DNA of 64,000 bases from an uncultured Acetatifactor sp. Lineage in GTDB: Bacteria; Bacillota; Clostridia; Lachnospirales; Lachnospiraceae. Both the position numbers and the translations under genes were made by a program. The DNA lies in assembly GCA_947627535.1 (NCBI GenBank), contig CANQWM010000004.1, forward strand, positions 1-64,000. Reading direction: 5' to 3'. Every line of letters starts with the position of its first letter. Position 1 is the first letter of the stretch. Below are positions 6,072 through 28,775 of this stretch, one piece after another. The notes beneath the pieces were generated by a model that saw nothing but the letters and a program-made list of their open reading frames with translations, was not told the origin of the DNA and did not search any database.

Positions 6072-6941
6072 TTATACAATTTTGCTGATGTCTTTCCATA
6101 CGTTTTGAGTAAAATATTTTCGTTTCTCCGGCGTCAGGAACAAACCGTTCGTATAAAAAGAATCATCATAATAGCGCTCATCATCTATATAATCAAGAAA
6201 AGGCATACCTTCCTTCACAATAGTCCGCAGATTATCATAGACAAATCTTTCTATAAATTCATCCGATATATGCTTACGAAGTCTCTTACTCATAGGCGGA
6301 ATCACAATGGCCGGCTTAAGCCCTTGCTCAATACAGTTATCGATGACTTTTTTTAAATCATTCTCCTTTTCCCTGAAGACATCCTGATAATATTCCGCCT
6401 GACCAGCATTTTTCAGATCGGTCAGGTATTTATTTTCAGATATCCAGTTTTCGATCAATCTCTCCATCGAATCCTGAGGATGAAAATTGCTTTGATCAAA
6501 CACTCTTTTCGTTCTGCGTTGCAATCCCTTTACAATTCTTAACACAAGATTTTTGCTTTTTAGCATTATCGGGAATCTTTTATAAAGCGAGTATTTCCAC
6601 TTCGGCAGATCCACATCGGAAGCCGGAAGAATTGACACATATTTTTCGGAAAAACTGTTTTTATATAAATAATCATTACTCCCAAACGAGAGCGGACATA
6701 CTACTACTACTACTACTACTCCGCCCCTTTTTATGTGACCGCCATAATGCTTTATAATTCTGGCATCATAGCGAAAATCTTCCGGTGCAACAGCCATGTT
6801 GAATCCGGATATTTCCGGTACAGCTGACCAGTCAAAATCATAATAGCTTGGTCCCGAACCGATATTCACGACATCCAACTCTTTCGGAATGGATGCAAAT
6901 CGATCTGACAACTCATTAAGATCTTTTTTCCTACTATACAC
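6072..6941 (-). CDS. Uncharacterised capsule-locus protein, possibly SGNH/DltD-like
   Basis: This 289-residue protein is not firmly recognised. It begins with GTG, seven bases after GGAGGAG. The N-terminal VVNIGSGPSYYDFDW resembles the first strand and nucleophile region of SGNH or DltD-like proteins. A seven-valine strand follows, and the C-terminal FLDYIDDERYYDDSFYTNGLFLTPEKR resembles the last block of such proteins, but with no clear Asp-x-x-His pair. It has no signal peptide or membrane segment. Its place between Wzx and the aldo/keto reductase suggests a step in substituent transfer to the polysaccharide. An acyl- or alanyl-transfer-related function is possible but unproven. Confidence 0.55.
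   Translation of the reverse strand: MYSRKKDLNELSDRFASIPKELDVVNIGSGPSYYDFDWSAVPEISGFNMAVAPEDFRYDARIIKHYGGHIKRGGVVVVVVVCPLSFGSNDYLYKNSFSEKYVSILPASDVDLPKWKYSLYKRFPIMLKSKNLVLRIVKGLQRRTKRVFDQSNFHPQDSMERLIENWISENKYLTDLKNAGQAEYYQDVFREKENDLKKVIDNCIEQGLKPAIVIPPMSKRLRKHISDEFIERFVYDNLRTIVKEGMPFLDYIDDERYYDDSFYTNGLFLTPEKRKYFTQNVWKDISKIV
6699..6719. repeat. Trinucleotide microsatellite (TAC)7
   Basis: Seven perfect TAC units read as GTA on the minus strand and encode seven consecutive valines in the uncharacterised protein. Unit gain or loss would keep the frame and only lengthen or shorten the strand. Confidence 0.95.
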
Positions 6942-16821: not shown

Positions 16822-17589
16822 TTAATCTCTTTTAAGCAAAACTCGTCTTAGCGCATGTACATCCTCTTCATTTGTTTTAACATACTTAGGTGTCATATAA
16901 TCCTCCCCATATGATGAAACTAGTATTTCATGATAATTGACCGAAATCATGATTTCTGTGTTTTCATATGAAACAATTTGATAAGACATCATGGTTTCTT
17001 TCGGCAAAATCAACCCTATCGCGGCATATTGATCCAACGCACGATGTATTTCTTATAAAAAAGTTTCTACAAAACCAATTCATCCACTTGAATCTTGATA
17101 CGGGCAAAAACAATGCGCCGAATCTCGAAATCGCATTATACACCCACCATTTCCATCCCTTATCTCCCAACGTTGCAAAAACATAATAAAGAAAGTAATT
17201 ATCGCTTGTTTTATCCTATAGCAAATCATATGTTCAGAAATGTAATCATAAATAAAAATATCCAACCATACCAATGGTTTGCCCTTTCGCTCCATGACCA
17301 ATCGCGGAATTCGGTCTGTATAATCATCGAAGTATGTCTCTTCATCTAATTTTGTTCCCTTGAGTATCCCTTCTATCTTTTCATACTCGCTCCGCAGCAT
17401 AGACACATCCACATCATCATCCCAGGGGATAAAGCCCTTCTCGCGAACTGCTCCCAAAAGAGAACCTCCATGTTATGAATATTAAATTCCTCTGTCCACA
17501 CATATTTTGTGGAACCTCGTCATCAATTCTAATAATTCCGCTTGAATATCCTCAATTGAGAAATTATGGTCAGACATAACACTGCTCAT
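16822..17589 (-). pseudogene. Broken LicD-family phosphotransferase gene
   Basis: Pieced together across three frames, this reads as a LicD protein like the intact neighbour. It starts at ATG 17589 (AGGAGG upstream), runs SIEDIQAELLELMTRFHKICVDRGI, meets TAA, continues YS, meets a second TAA, then [24 protein letters not shown] frameshift near 17165 ([13 protein letters not shown]) and another at a T6 run near 17053 lead to EIHRALDQYAAIGLILPKE and HEILVSSYGEDYMTPK. Two nonsense codons plus two frameshifts make sequencing error an unlikely full explanation. It was probably a second phosphotransferase adding a phosphate-linked substituent, now lost. Confidence 0.88.
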
Positions 17590-20085: not shown

Positions 20086-21294
20086 TTATAAACTCTCAAA
20101 AAATCTCGCATACCCCTCGATCAGCGCCTTGCTCGTATGCTCCCAACTTAGCTCATTCACAACGCGGCTGCGACCATATTCCCCCATTTGTCTGCGACGC
20201 TCCGGGTCTTCGAGCAACTCTACGATTTTATTCGCCATGTCCTCGGCATCGTTATTTTGGGCATATAGCGAAGCCTCCTGCGCTGAGTAGCGTCCCTCGG
20301 TTAAATCGAACTGTACAATAGGCTTTGCCAGCGCCATATACTCAAGAATCTTATTCATAGTGCTCTTATCGTTCATGCTGTTATATTTGTCGCAGTTAAC
20401 ACAGACATCCGCTGTATTGAGATATTTGAGCATCTTTTCATCTGGTACGCGCCCGATAAACTCGACACAATCGTCAAGCTGCATTTCATGAGCCTGCTTT
20501 TTAAGAGCTTCAAGATGCGGTCCACCTCCAACAACGCCCCAAAAAACACTGTATCCGCGCTGCTTAATGATCTTAGCCGCTTCCAGAAGATACTCGATGC
20601 CCTCCTGCTGACCAATAACGCCGAGATATCCTACCATATACTTGTGACCGCGCTTTATGCTCTCGGCAGGTGGCTGTATTTTCATGCGTTCCAGCTTTGG
20701 TCCGCTACGCAGAACAACTACCTTTTGCGGATCCATTTTGCCGCGTTCTATAGCGATTTTCTTATAACTTTCGTTGGTAACAAACGCAAAAGAGCAGTGT
20801 TTATATGTCTGTCTTTCAAAGAAAAGCTGGCTCCAGTACAAAGGCCCACTGGCATGCCCAAATTTTGCTTCAAACAACTCAGGACATATATCGTGGTGGT
20901 CAAACACGTATTTAACACCATATTTTTTAAACTTTTTTGCGACCATATAGATATCATCAGGCGGGTTACACCCTTGTATCACATCAAATCCGATTTCTTT
21001 GTATATTTTCCTTGCAAGCCGTATTTCCTCACGAAGTGCAGTATAATATTCTTTTAAATAACCGACAGCACCATTACCTTCGGTCGGAAGATAATGCCTG
21101 AAAATATGTACGCCGTCAAGGAATTCCTCTTCCTTTGTATATTCCTTCCCCTTGGGACAGATGACAGACACCGTGTACCCATTTCCCACTAAAGTAGTAG
21201 CCTCCTGCCATACTCGTGTATCGAACGGAACAGGAAGGTTTTCTACGATAATTAAAATTTTCTTACCATTCTGCGTTAGAGCCTGGCCTTTCAT
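20086..21294 (-). CDS. GT4-family glycosyltransferase, WbuB-like
   Basis: This 402-residue GT-B enzyme has the characteristic start LIIVENLPVPFDTRVWQEATTL found in WbuB/WcaI-like transferases, a donor site around GVIGQQEGIEYLLEAAKII and a C-terminal NKILEYMALAKPIV. The track ORF begins at a GTG at 21303, but ATG 21294 is better placed relative to AGGTGAAG. It probably adds a sugar early in repeat-unit assembly. It directly follows the CapK-like gene; CapK, this type of GT4 and heparinase II/III-like genes commonly occur together in exopolysaccharide loci, so they may work as one unit. Confidence 0.88.
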   Translation of the reverse strand: MKGQALTQNGKKILIIVENLPVPFDTRVWQEATTLVGNGYTVSVICPKGKEYTKEEEFLDGVHIFRHYLPTEGNGAVGYLKEYYTALREEIRLARKIYKEIGFDVIQGCNPPDDIYMVAKKFKKYGVKYVFDHHDICPELFEAKFGHASGPLYWSQLFFERQTYKHCSFAFVTNESYKKIAIERGKMDPQKVVVLRSGPKLERMKIQPPAESIKRGHKYMVGYLGVIGQQEGIEYLLEAAKIIKQRGYSVFWGVVGGGPHLEALKKQAHEMQLDDCVEFIGRVPDEKMLKYLNTADVCVNCDKYNSMNDKSTMNKILEYMALAKPIVQFDLTEGRYSAQEASLYAQNNDAEDMANKIVELLEDPERRRQMGEYGRSRVVNELSWEHTSKALIEGYARFFESL

Positions 21295-21304
21295 AAGCAA
21301 CACT

Positions 21305-22966
21305 TCACCTACTTTTAGTTATTTTGGCATTTTGAATTATCATCTGGTATTTACCCCGTTCGGTAAGCTGTAATGACTGAACAAACTTCACCTTACATTT
21401 GATACCTGGGGCAAGTTTACTGCTGACATTATTTTGGATTAGCCTCATAGTCGAAGCCGATTTGTATCTGTCAGGTAAGAGAACGTTAAGTACACATCGT
21501 CCGGGAACCGTTTGAACAAATTGATAGCCCTCCACAGCATCAAATGTTTTGTCGTGGAAATTGATAGCCGCAACCGACACCTGCTCCCCATTTGAACCAT
21601 AAAGGATATCTCGGTCACGATGTCCCCATATATGGTAAAATAATAGAGGTTTTACCCCCCCCGATTTTCTGACAACCATTTGGTATTTCCCTCTGGAAGT
21701 CATTTCAAGCTCTCCGACAATACAAACCTTGCACAAAATTGAAGAACCAAATTTTTGATGAACACTCTTTTCAATTTCTGCAATTTTTGTATCCGAAATA
21801 TCAGAAACCGTCGGAACGAGGTTGAGAATACACGAACCTGGCTCGTACTGAATAAATTGATACTTCTCTATTCCTTCAAAGGTTTTGTCGTGAAAATTGA
21901 TAGCTGCCGCTGAAATTTGCTCGCCATTTTTTCCCTCAAGGGTATCTGCATTCCAGTGTCCGTGTATCGTGCACCCGTTCTCAGATATCAGCTCCACACA
22001 ATCATCCACTTCATACCGAATCAGAGGGGTCTTCCCATTTATAAAACCTGTTACAATAGGCTTGCCATCTTCACTTATTTCAGTGATTCCATACAGCGAT
22101 TGAAACACATAACCTCTATCATATTTTTCAGCATAAACTGCCCTTTCTGAATGCCCGTAAAACATAGCAATCGGACATTCGAGAACAGCTCTTATTTCGT
22201 TTTCCTGAAAGTCATACAAATTTTCCGAGATCAGCAGCGCTGCTTTGAACCTGTGTCCAAGCTTTATTCCTGCCTCCTGAGCCAAGCGGCAAAGATTATA
22301 AACAGACGAGGGGTATCCGTAGATGAAATCAGCACCGTAGCGGTCTATCCTCTTGATATATTCTTTTATATTGTCACGGTTAAGTCTGAAAACATTCAGC
22401 CTTATCTCCTGGTACAAGGGATTGATCTCATAAAGCTTTCCATGAAGATCAACGCCGCGCAGAGTTGCCAATTTGCTTGTCCGATAATTATAGCCAAATT
22501 TACTCCAATAGTGATATGTAAAGGCCCATTCGCGATATATTGCGTCCTTTTCCATAAGAACGTGGGTAGGTTCCCCGGTAGTCCCGCCTGTTCTTACATC
22601 ATAAAAATTATCTATATCATCTGCTTTCAGCTTTTCGTAATTTTCTTTAAGAAGCTCTTTTGTAAGAACCGGCAACCTTTTTAAAGCTTCAGGAGAATTT
22701 ACAGACTCCGGCTTAAAGCCAATGCTGTCCATCAGTTCCCTATAATAAGCCGTGTGGCAGTACGCATGCGTAAGAGTCTCCTTCAGATTCTCCATTTGCA
22801 TTTCATTTATTTCCTGCTCAGTCATGCCGTCTGCCTGCTCAAGCACCTCATACTGTTTTAGAAAAACCTTATTTTCAATCAAGCGATTGCGGATTATATG
22901 GGCAAACGGCCTTTTCATCCAATATGGCATATTTTCATTTAGCTTCTTAATTGCAGCTATATTCAT
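21305..22966 (-). CDS. CapK/PaaK-like adenylate-forming ligase with duplicated C-terminal domain
   Basis: The first 440 residues match CapK-type relatives of phenylacetate-CoA ligase, including the nucleotide-binding motif VRTGGTTGEPTHV and FIYGYPSSVYNL. The family normally ends near residue 445. Here a second copy of the last 100 residues follows: the first has GEQISAAAINFHDKTFEGIEKYQF and ends RGKYQMVVRKSG, the second has GEQVSVAAINFHDKTFDAVEGYQF and ends RGKYQMIIQNA. Between them lies a G8 tract. CapK proteins are required for some capsules and may activate a carboxylate for transfer to sugar, but their exact reaction is unsettled. The start overlaps the heparinase-like gene by 20 bases, implying coupling. 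Confidence 0.85.
   Translation of the reverse strand: MNIAAIKKLNENMPYWMKRPFAHIIRNRLIENKVFLKQYEVLEQADGMTEQEINEMQMENLKETLTHAYCHTAYYRELMDSIGFKPESVNSPEALKRLPVLTKELLKENYEKLKADDIDNFYDVRTGGTTGEPTHVLMEKDAIYREWAFTYHYWSKFGYNYRTSKLATLRGVDLHGKLYEINPLYQEIRLNVFRLNRDNIKEYIKRIDRYGADFIYGYPSSVYNLCRLAQEAGIKLGHRFKAALLISENLYDFQENEIRAVLECPIAMFYGHSERAVYAEKYDRGYVFQSLYGITEISEDGKPIVTGFINGKTPLIRYEVDDCVELISENGCTIHGHWNADTLEGKNGEQISAAAINFHDKTFEGIEKYQFIQYEPGSCILNLVPTVSDISDTKIAEIEKSVHQKFGSSILCKVCIVGELEMTSRGKYQMVVRKSGGVKPLLFYHIWGHRDRDILYGSNGEQVSVAAINFHDKTFDAVEGYQFVQTVPGRCVLNVLLPDRYKSASTMRLIQNNVSSKLAPGIKCKVKFVQSLQLTERGKYQMIIQNAKITKSR
21655..21662 (-). repeat. G8 homopolymer at the CapK domain junction
   Basis: Eight Cs on the plus strand read TCG GGG GGG GTA in the gene. 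One G fewer gives TCG GGG GGG TAA, a stop just after the first C-terminal domain copy; one more gives a short out-of-frame tail. In an A/T-rich gene this is a candidate slippage site. Confidence 0.85.
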
Positions 22967-24845
22967 GAGTGCTCTCCCACACAGTTATTTTTGATATCAT
23001 CCCTATGCCATGAGATCTGACGCTTACTGCAGTTGTGCCATTTTGCACTCCATACCGTTCTGAATAAACGGTATGTCGCGTGGATACATCAAAATTTTCT
23101 CTACTTTCAAATTCTATTTTGCAGGTGCATACTCCTGCTGAAACAATGACCGAATTGTTCTCGATTTTTGCAGTCACATTCGGCAAAAGCATAAACGTCA
23201 ATGTATAATTGCAGGCTGCTGATAACTCATCCTTAATGCAAAGTTTCCTGTTTCCGTCAAATTCAAATGTTCTGCGATGAATGATAGGACGGTATCCATC
23301 ATGCTCTGCTACAAGAAGCGTTTTCTCCGTCATATTTTCATAGCTTATTAGCTTACACTCCGCTCGCCTGCCCCATAAAAAAGCGCCTAACATTTCTGAC
23401 TGATCTTTTCCGTCAACCGTGACTGTGTTGTGATTTTCGGTCTTTCTGAACGCGTTTCTTGAGTCCAGATTGCAGTGGTAAATATAAGTCCCGGGGTCGA
23501 CAAACATCGGCTCACCGTCGACAAACATCTGAAAGCTCAAAGCGTCTGCATGACCATGGGCGGCGATACTTCCAAACCCGAGTGCGGCATGATCGATGCC
23601 TATTAGGATTTTTCGGTCGTTGCTTCTAAGGATTGTATTCCCGCCATCCTTATAACAAGCACAAAATGGAGATCGATACAACGGCTTTTGTTGAGCAGCG
23701 CTCAGTTCTTCCTCGCTAAAAAGCCAGGTAAGATTTTCGCAGTTCAATTTGCTTAAGTCGGTATACTGCTTGTCCAGCATAACGCTGAGCAATCCAAGCA
23801 TATATTGATAGTGATTTTCTATGCCGCCCTGCAAATCAAGAATTTTGCCCTCATCATCATCACCAAAAACTATGCTCTCGCCATAATCACCCATGCAGTC
23901 TGCAACATATACGCACATCTTTTCAAGCATGGGGGACCATGTATCAGGAACGCTGTACTCGTTTTTGATAAGCAGCCGCATCATCAGCCCCATTGCCTCC
24001 ATATAAAAAGACTGATAATGCAAAGCCAGCTCTTTATTAACTCCATCTGAATAGTTTTGCAGAGGCAGCTCTCTGGTAAGAATATCGACCGCAAGCTTGA
24101 TCCACGGCTGATAAGCACACAGGATTCCCGTCTGACCTATAGCATACGATTCGACGATCAAATGATTGTTCGCAGACGAATACCGTGAATAATGCTTTGT
24201 TATGTAGTCGGTCATATTCAAAATGCCGGTTTGAAGTTTATCAAGCAATTCCTTTGGAGCGTCTGTCGATTTTAAGAAGCAATAGGAATAGCACCAATTA
24301 CTGCATCGAATAGCAACCTCCATTACACTTGTCCAGGATATTCCCCACAAAAAAGGGTTCTCTTCATTCCAATCCTCAAACAGCTCCGTAAACTCATCAA
24401 GATACTTTTTATCATGACTTGCCGCGTAATTTTTTGCCAATAATGCAAACTGAAAATGTCTGTTAAGTTCCCAGTTTGTCCGCGCATCGCCTATATCATC
24501 GCGCTGCTTATATTCAAGCGAATAGCTAAATTTTAAGAGCCAATCGTTCTTTGTCTGAAACCCAGCATACCACCGCTTTTTATAATCAGAATAATTGAAA
24601 TTCCCGAGCAAGGGTATGCTTAAAGCAGTCCTAAAATCCTCATTATCAGTGTTTAATTGCAGTTTTTTTTCATCAATAGTCAGTCCTTTTAATTGTGGGT
24701 TAAAAATCCCGCTTATGACGCTTGTTTTTGACTCGCAAAAAAACTTTTGTTCGTTTCTGCAAATTGCCCTTTGTTTCAGTCTCCAAACTACTTCAGGTAT
24801 GCTCATAGCCTTTAAGCGCCTTATTAACCATGACAAATCAGCCAA
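22947..24845 (-). CDS. Heparinase II/III-like protein
   Basis: This 632-residue protein has an N-terminal helical toroid region (WLIRRLKAMSIPEVVWRLKQ; NWELNRHFQFALLAKNY) and a C-terminal heparinase II/III domain beginning about residue 380 with AALGFGSIAAHGHADALSFQMFVDGEPMFVDPGTYIY, where His and Tyr residues of lyases of this fold are visible. It lacks a signal peptide. In exopolysaccharide loci such proteins are thought to trim or process uronic-acid-containing polymer rather than degrade host glycans. A nucleotide-sugar dehydrogenase immediately upstream would provide a uronic acid, which fits a lyase substrate. The start is TTG, seven bases after GGAGG. Confidence 0.85.
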   Translation of the reverse strand: MADLSWLIRRLKAMSIPEVVWRLKQRAICRNEQKFFCESKTSVISGIFNPQLKGLTIDEKKLQLNTDNEDFRTALSIPLLGNFNYSDYKKRWYAGFQTKNDWLLKFSYSLEYKQRDDIGDARTNWELNRHFQFALLAKNYAASHDKKYLDEFTELFEDWNEENPFLWGISWTSVMEVAIRCSNWCYSYCFLKSTDAPKELLDKLQTGILNMTDYITKHYSRYSSANNHLIVESYAIGQTGILCAYQPWIKLAVDILTRELPLQNYSDGVNKELALHYQSFYMEAMGLMMRLLIKNEYSVPDTWSPMLEKMCVYVADCMGDYGESIVFGDDDEGKILDLQGGIENHYQYMLGLLSVMLDKQYTDLSKLNCENLTWLFSEEELSAAQQKPLYRSPFCACYKDGGNTILRSNDRKILIGIDHAALGFGSIAAHGHADALSFQMFVDGEPMFVDPGTYIYHCNLDSRNAFRKTENHNTVTVDGKDQSEMLGAFLWGRRAECKLISYENMTEKTLLVAEHDGYRPIIHRRTFEFDGNRKLCIKDELSAACNYTLTFMLLPNVTAKIENNSVIVSAGVCTCKIEFESRENFDVSTRHTVYSERYGVQNGTTAVSVRSHGIGMISKITVWESTHEYSCN

Positions 24846-27170: not shown

Positions 27171-28622
27171 TTACATCGCCCCGCTCTTGGCCACAACCGC
27201 CTTCACGGTTTTTGCCAGGATCTTAAGATCCATTCCGAAGCTCCACTCGCTGATGTACTTCATGTCCAGCTTTACCACTTCCTCAAAGTCCGTGATCCCG
27301 CTGCGGCCGCTGACCTGCCATAAGCCCGTGATCCCCGGCTTTGCTGCGAGCCTTGCCATATGCCGGAACTCATACTTTTCCCATTCCGCCACGGTGGGCG
27401 GCCGGGTGCCTACCAGGCTCATATCCCCTTTTAGTACATTGATAAACTGCGGGAACTCATCCAGGCTCCAGTCGCGGATAAAATTTCCGATCCCTTTTTT
27501 ATAGGTTCCGTCCGGTAAAAGCCTGCTGCCGATGATCCTGGGATCTTCATCCAGCTTAAACATAAACCCGTCTTTTACCTTATTCTTGTCCATCAGCTCC
27601 GCTTTCCGCTCTTCTGCGTCCCGATACATGCTGCGGAACTTATACATTTTAAACCGCCTGCCGTTCTGGCCGACCCGTTCCTGAACAAAGAACAGCGGTC
27701 CCGGCGATTTCAGCTTTATAATAGGAGCAAGAAACAGCGCCAAAATCAGGGTAAACAGTGTACCGACCAGGCCGCCCGCGATATCAAGCATCCGTTTCAG
27801 GAACATCTGCCCGTTGGTGGCATAATTGATGCTGGTCGTCATCACCGTATAATTTCCGAAGCGCTCTACCAGCTGCCTGCGGTTCACCGTCCGGTCGCCG
27901 TCCAGAAGCTTTACATGGACGATCACGCCCATCTCTGAAAAATGCTCCAGCAGCTGCGTGGGCTGCTCCATCCCCTCTGGAATATCAAGGAATACCTCGT
28001 CCACACATTCCCTGCGGACATATTCCAGCACGGTCCCGCGGTCCGCCACAACCGGGATACCGGCGATCTTGCCCTCGGTACGGTTTTCATCCAAAAGAAC
28101 CACTCCAAGGATCCGCAGGTTTTCGTAAGTCTGGTTTCTGATATTGTCCAGTACAGCCGCCGCCAGGTCCTTCGTTGTCAGAACCAGCAGCGTGCGTTTT
28201 CCCTTTTCCCTCGCCTTTCGTTTCAGAAAGGTTTTCCAGAGGATCCGGGTAAAATAACCCAATATGCCGTAAAACAGACCCGTAAGGTACATAACGGTAC
28301 GGGAAAACGAGGAACCCTCCCGCACGGAAAAAAGATAAAAGGTTGCACAAAGCTCCACAAGGCATACTTGCTTCAGCGTCATGGCAGCCTCCACAAGATA
28401 TCCTCTTTTCAGGACATTCTTAAACATCTCTGAAAAGATCATCAGTACAACGGCAATCAGGGACAACACCACCGCCATGTTGCGGTAGGTGACATGCGCA
28501 TAAAGGACTCCGAATCCGTGCCGCATGACATATGCCATAAAGAGCGACAAATTCAGACATACCAGGTCCAACATGATAAAATCAAGATGCTTGGCCCAGC
28601 CCTGTGAACGTTTCCGATACAT
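27171..28622 (-). CDS. Undecaprenyl-phosphate sugar phosphotransferase (initiating)
   Basis: This protein of 483 residues has four to five N-terminal membrane segments, a CoA-binding-like central region, one further span (MLDIAGGLVGTLFTLILALFLAPII) and the catalytic phosphoglycosyl transferase domain (KLKSPGPLFFVQERVGQNGRRFKMYKFRSM; WSLDEFPQFINVLKGDMSLVGTRPP). It is of the WbaP/CpsE polyprenyl glycosylphosphotransferase class that puts the first sugar phosphate on undecaprenyl phosphate at the inner face of the membrane. The track ORF begins at 28718 within an RNA hairpin; ATG 28622 (MYRKRSQGW) is preferred because it removes that hairpin from the coding region, although its ribosome binding site is weak. 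Confidence 0.9.
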   Translation of the reverse strand: MYRKRSQGWAKHLDFIMLDLVCLNLSLFMAYVMRHGFGVLYAHVTYRNMAVVLSLIAVVLMIFSEMFKNVLKRGYLVEAAMTLKQVCLVELCATFYLFSVREGSSFSRTVMYLTGLFYGILGYFTRILWKTFLKRKAREKGKRTLLVLTTKDLAAAVLDNIRNQTYENLRILGVVLLDENRTEGKIAGIPVVADRGTVLEYVRRECVDEVFLDIPEGMEQPTQLLEHFSEMGVIVHVKLLDGDRTVNRRQLVERFGNYTVMTTSINYATNGQMFLKRMLDIAGGLVGTLFTLILALFLAPIIKLKSPGPLFFVQERVGQNGRRFKMYKFRSMYRDAEERKAELMDKNKVKDGFMFKLDEDPRIIGSRLLPDGTYKKGIGNFIRDWSLDEFPQFINVLKGDMSLVGTRPPTVAEWEKYEFRHMARLAAKPGITGLWQVSGRSGITDFEEVVKLDMKYISEWSFGMDLKILAKTVKAVVAKSGAM

Positions 28623-28676
28623 ACCTATCCGACCCCTGTACTTTCTTTTCCGGTCTGCGTAAATTTTTTTCTTACA

Positions 28677-28775
28677 CCCAATACCCCCCCGGAAAACGGA
28701 GGGGCATTGGGCAACCACATGCTGAAAGTTGGTTGACGGGTTCTACCCGCCCAATTAATTATGCATAATTAATTG
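28677..28775. promoter_or_regulatory. Cluster of hairpins and a 24-bp palindrome upstream of the initiating transferase
   Basis: Four inverted repeats stand in about 100 bases: CCCAAT...ATTGGG enclosing CCCC/GGGG (28677-28711), CAACC/GGTTG, CGGGT/ACCCG, and a perfect 24-bp A/T-rich palindrome centred on ATGCAT (28752-28775). The region separates the surface-anchoring genes from the biosynthetic genes. No U-tract follows the strong hairpin in the minus direction, so it may be a processing or attenuation site rather than a plain terminator. Confidence 0.6.

Follow-up and report, generated by a model that had tools for sequence, protein, structure and literature searches.

A capK-like gene in an uncultured Acetatifactor sp. 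raises the question if a single run of eight G residues, lying between two copies of one C-terminal domain, could decide where the encoded protein ends. A sequence-only reading of the 64,000-nucleotide stretch analysed here (the window) had proposed just such a switch between a one-domain and a two-domain enzyme. The features needed for an answer are the following, in window coordinates and in the direction of transcription; L021 and L022 are loci of related genomes introduced below.

22947-24845, minus strand: preceding gene, heparinase II/III-like, which shares 20 bases with the start of capK; syntenic in L021 and L022
21305-22966, minus strand: capK-like gene for a PaaK-type adenylate-forming enzyme of 553 aa when the tract has eight G; PaaK-like NCBIfam matches below cut-off, match to PDB 4r1l
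21992-22966, minus strand: N-terminal part, residues 1-325, 83-85% identical to the syntenic relatives (L021, L022)
22001-22036, minus strand: A7-like motif GKTPLIRYEVDD, residues 311-322, with a sharp drop in homology to the relatives right behind it
21668-21967, minus strand: C-terminal domain copy 1, residues 334-433, GHW replacing the GHR of close relatives, RGKY kept
21649-21664, minus strand: 16-mer TCGGGGGGGGTAAAAC, which the sister orthologue (L021:5327-5342) has unchanged and in the same frame
21655-21662, minus strand: G8 tract, the sole such run in the genome (C8 on the plus strand)
21652-21654, minus strand: TAA, read as a stop codon once one G is lost
21332-21631, minus strand: second copy of the C-terminal domain, residues 446-545, in which GHRDRDILYG and RGKY are preserved; probably the stub of another C-domain
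20086-21303, minus strand: next gene, a family-4 glycosyltransferase, starting immediately after the copy-2 stop

ORF calling in the window confirmed the open frame of 553 aa. The protein matches NCBIfam model NF045666 (E 4e-20) and PaaK models (E 1e-12) and misses the curated cut-offs (72 bits vs 300, 47 vs 646), so that it is a relative of those equivalogs and not a member. Its best solved relative is the phenylacetate-CoA ligase PDB 4r1l (E 9e-12), with homology in the N-terminal part; a Pfam search returned zero matches. To judge by its sequence, it is a remote PaaK/CapK-type adenylate-forming enzyme. In terms of the usual motifs (A7, A8 and the C-terminal lysine motif), A7 reads RYEVDD, A8 has its regular form (GHR) in copy 2 but departs from it in copy 1 (GHW), and RGKY occurs in both copies. 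The protein thus shares with the PaaK/CapK family its N-terminal homology and RGKY at the C-terminal lysine site, whereas the scores below cut-off, the second C-terminal domain and the capsule-type operon set it apart.

The gene sits in an exopolysaccharide (capsule-type) locus, where a UDP-sugar dehydrogenase-like gene, the heparinase-like gene, capK and the glycosyltransferase are accompanied by further genes, among them those for a flippase, a pyruvyl transferase and LicD. An apparently truncated LicD-family ORF of 125 aa (17080-17457) adjoins a full-length LicD-like gene. Elsewhere in the window, a sevenfold TAC repeat (6699-6720; GTA on the coding strand) encodes a poly-valine stretch near the start of ORF 6072-6797.

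The two tandem terminal domains of about 100 residues claimed by the sequence-only reading are borne out: copies 1 and 2 align without gaps over 100 residues, of which 48% are identical (E=8e-35). Copy 2 opens with PLLFYH, which corresponds to PLIRYE of the A7 motif, and is then about 15 residues short ahead of GHRDRD. From an alignment of four rows, AlphaFold built a model of low quality (pLDDT 49), in which both copies show the same strand-strand-helix-strand pattern. A codon-position comparison of copy 2 with relatives is compatible with past as well as with present constraint. We found no other two-domain CapK in the genus, family and order (about 590 genomes), the remaining matched open frames having at most 473 codons, and no relative in viral contigs. 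Being present in one genome only, the two-domain form may be recent and functionless.

The G8 tract does encode part of the linker between the two copies, being read TCG GGG GGG GTA AAA in the 553-aa frame. Loss of one G (G7) leads to an immediate stop and a protein of 437 aa ending in ...VVRKSGG*; since single-domain relatives have 445-465 aa, this is an ordinary CapK length, as had been proposed. A gained G (G9) adds the predicted short tail, with a stop 13 residues later (450 aa). According to the computed frames, the gene has one feature of a C-terminal phase-variable gene: a homopolymer late in the coding sequence, on the length of which the C-terminus depends.

Among runs of at least eight G or C, this G8 is the only one in the window and in the entire 2.85-Mb genome, none being longer; exact G7 runs number 47 genome-wide. 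Dinucleotide-preserving shuffles of the window alone predict about five G8 runs, which indicates that such runs are strongly depleted and that the survivor is unusual. Within the polysaccharide locus (840-33276, boundaries chosen post hoc) there are four runs of at least seven G vs 0.55 expected (P ~0.002). A G7 at 28684-28690 lies just upstream of an undecaprenyl-phosphate sugar transferase-like gene (27171-28718), or inside its alternative start.

For comparison with relatives, one genome per species was used. L021 belongs to a metagenome-assembled genome (MAG) of an uncultured Acetatifactor (G013), a sister species in the same genus, and L022 to a Lachnospiraceae MAG (G556). Both share the order dehydrogenase, heparinase-like gene, capK, and both encode a single-domain CapK (465 and 447 aa, respectively). 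In the L021 orthologue, TCGGGGGGGGTAAAAC is identical over all 16 bases and directly follows the single C-domain, with both flanks diverged. The L021 protein ends in ...CKEGPKIF-SGGVK-HSGKTIAGCTFCEREVAA*, and its stop overlaps a TTG that is probably the start codon of another capK. Loss of one G leads to an immediate stop in the window species as well as in L021. By a rough estimate, the chance that the only G8 of the window genome coincides with one of about seven in the sister is near 1e-5 to 1e-4. That the sister has G8 and the following TAA in the corresponding position suggests an element of some importance or, at the least, of some age; on the aligned sequences, it appears either to predate the two-domain form or to be kept by selection.

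In L021, the element governs only a 20-residue tail, so the one- or two-domain reading would apply at most to the genome of the window. The L021 element also decides if translation ends at the start of the next gene, and the effect shared by L021 and the window would be whether translation stops at the start of the neighbouring gene. The proposed switch is partly supported: its frame logic is correct, and G8-TAA is conserved in the sister. A repertoire of long poly-G tracts is absent from the genome. The capK of L022 has no G tract, though its genome is rich in poly-G.

A common recombination site was considered as an explanation for the 16-mer and rejected, as the viral contigs lack it and it occurs in 3 of 138 genus genomes. 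A third copy of TCGGGGGGGGTAAAAC (L102, G503) lies at codon 7, close to the start of a GDSL-lipase-like gene with licD adjoining, and may be there by chance; a match in G549 (L106), on the opposite strand of radical-SAM-like genes, was taken as chance.

The sister genome contains seven G8 runs, three of which interrupt genes, splitting those for DUF6044, DUF6056 and an ABC substrate-binding protein (ABC_sub_bind) into two frames (L107, L109 and L117). Such breaks are expected from phase-off alleles or from assembly errors. The genome of L022 holds about 68 poly-G runs, nearly all of exactly nine G (loci L119-L138). Some lie in promoter-like spacers between -35-like and -10-like boxes (TTGCAA-G9-TATAAT; L125, L126, L128), others near the starts of glycosyltransferases (L135, L136) and a DNA methylase (L124), or behind the lipobox of a lipoprotein (L138). 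The set resembles a contingency system that extends over the whole genome of a Lachnospiraceae species, although it may be an assembly artefact. Within the same taxonomic order, G8 matches, counted with overlaps, reach 509 in the genome of G053 and 182 in that of G040, far above other relatives.

How, then, did the gene acquire two C-terminal domains? DNA identity to L022 falls steeply right after the A7-like motif and recovers at the glycosyltransferase start, and the C-domains of L021 and L022 are only 45-46% identical to copy 1 and 47-54% to copy 2, against 83-85% for the N-terminal part. Since distant paralogues have no such contrast (N-terminal part about 41%, C-terminal part about 36%), the C-domain has more likely been exchanged than evolved fast. 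In a C-domain tree, copy 2 stands beside the L021 and L022 domains, followed by copy 1, both copies on long branches. The gene order is capK-A, G8 and a complete capK-B in L021, and capK-A, G8 and a C-domain in the window, which suggests that the second domain is the stub of a second capK. However, copy 2 is closer to A-type C-domains (49-53%) than to capK-B of L021 (36%), which leaves the fusion history unsettled. Alternatively, copy 1 may have been inserted ahead of a resident C-domain; both histories fit the present sequences. The second domain in the window genome has the appearance of a stub that became fused when a domain was replaced or genes were joined.

The best explanation, which we would place midway between doubt and belief, combines these elements. 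Recombination would have exchanged the C-terminal domain of a PaaK/CapK-type enzyme whose gene already carried G8-TAA, the older element, at its 3' end; a further C-terminal domain, most probably left over from a second capK, would then have been joined in frame behind it, and the tract would act as a C-terminal phase switch. The G-run probably slips at replication. With G8, translation would pass through copy 2 up to the next gene (553 aa); with G7 and G9 it would end at 437 and 450 aa, respectively. The switch would thereby add or remove a C-domain and move the stop either next to, or about 350 nt from, the glycosyltransferase start. What the data show directly is the sequence with its frames, the conserved element, the homology of the domains and the synteny; that the tract slips, how the fusion came about and whether enzyme or polysaccharide is affected are inferred.

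The identical in-frame 16-mer of the orthologue amid diverged flanks speaks for a switch, as do the G tracts of relatives at places where genes break and the enrichment of G runs in the polysaccharide locus, with its post hoc boundaries. Against it count the shortness of G8 for a contingency tract in a genome without longer ones, the L022 capK without a tract, and the restriction of the two-domain form to one genome. More specifically, the G7 enzyme would carry copy 1 with its altered A8, and G8 would add a C-domain with an intact A8; that the switch serves to change the domain number in this manner is a rather doubtful proposition.

A fusion that has simply become fixed is unlikely on balance, yet the most serious competitor to a phase switch. 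Here, replacement or deletion would have left an in-frame stub of a second C-domain behind a stable G8, with a protein of 553 aa and a neutral or harmless copy 2, in line with the uniqueness of the two-domain form, the sharp mosaic edges and the single G8 in the genome. Against it, copy 2 is still open over about 118 codons and retains the two core motifs (GHR..D and RGKY), and G8-TAA is conserved in a sister that has no stub.

It is improbable that the true majority state is G7, with the eighth G due to an assembly or sequencing indel or to slippage during library preparation; the gene would then encode an ordinary CapK of 437 aa and copy 2 would be an untranslated remnant. The normal length of the G7 product fits this, and three of seven G8 runs at broken genes in the sister assembly make G8 lengths in such assemblies unsafe; but G8 occurs in the same frame in two independent assemblies, and copy 2 is free of stops when read in the frame set by G8. 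Gly-tRNA or RNA polymerase can slip on GGG GGG G, and a conserved G8 with TAA in the +1 frame would suit transcriptional or ribosomal slippage, which would yield both forms in every cell at a set ratio and leave the DNA unchanged, but slippage on G8 in this Acetatifactor host is a presumption and we consider this the least probable account.

A phase switch of this type has known precedents. In Helicobacter canadensis, C-terminal phase variation occurs via poly-G tracts located late (3') in the gene, as in capK, and a change in tract length gives a different or longer C-terminus; in one case, HCAN_0660, the product is merged with that of the following CDS, comparable to the run-on of capK in the G8 state (PMC2823697). 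In that species, the tracts are G10-14 with length ranges in reads, and most tails differ by a few residues, whereas capK has a G8 and the part added is a whole second homologous domain (PMC2823697). In Neisseria gonorrhoeae, (G)8 runs of lgtC, hpuA and hsdS are reported to vary, C-terminal phase-variable genes include a G8 case (ispH), and in one frame the product is fused to that of the coding sequence behind it (NGK_1211/1212), as in capK; the species belongs to another phylum, and the available part of the paper describes no domain duplication (PMC5320596). In Bifidobacterium breve, like the capK host a gut commensal, G10 or G11 decides on the joint translation of two ORFs of a sortase-pilus locus; there, unlike in capK, the tract is part of the first pilin gene and turns the production of pili on or off, and its variation was measured by maximum depth sequencing (PMC9187656).

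By the H. canadensis and gonococcal precedents, the mechanism is already of a known kind. As far as the available parts of these papers go, adding a second homologous catalytic-type domain by a switch was not found described and would be a new variant. Our literature search found no C-terminal phase variation or poly-G tail switching in the Lachnospiraceae; the capK switch, if true, would be the first C-terminal phase variation found described in this family. The capsule chemistry of a major gut family could then vary clonally by one base. A wider lead comes from some relatives in which promoter-like sites and surface genes contain poly-G runs by the tens.
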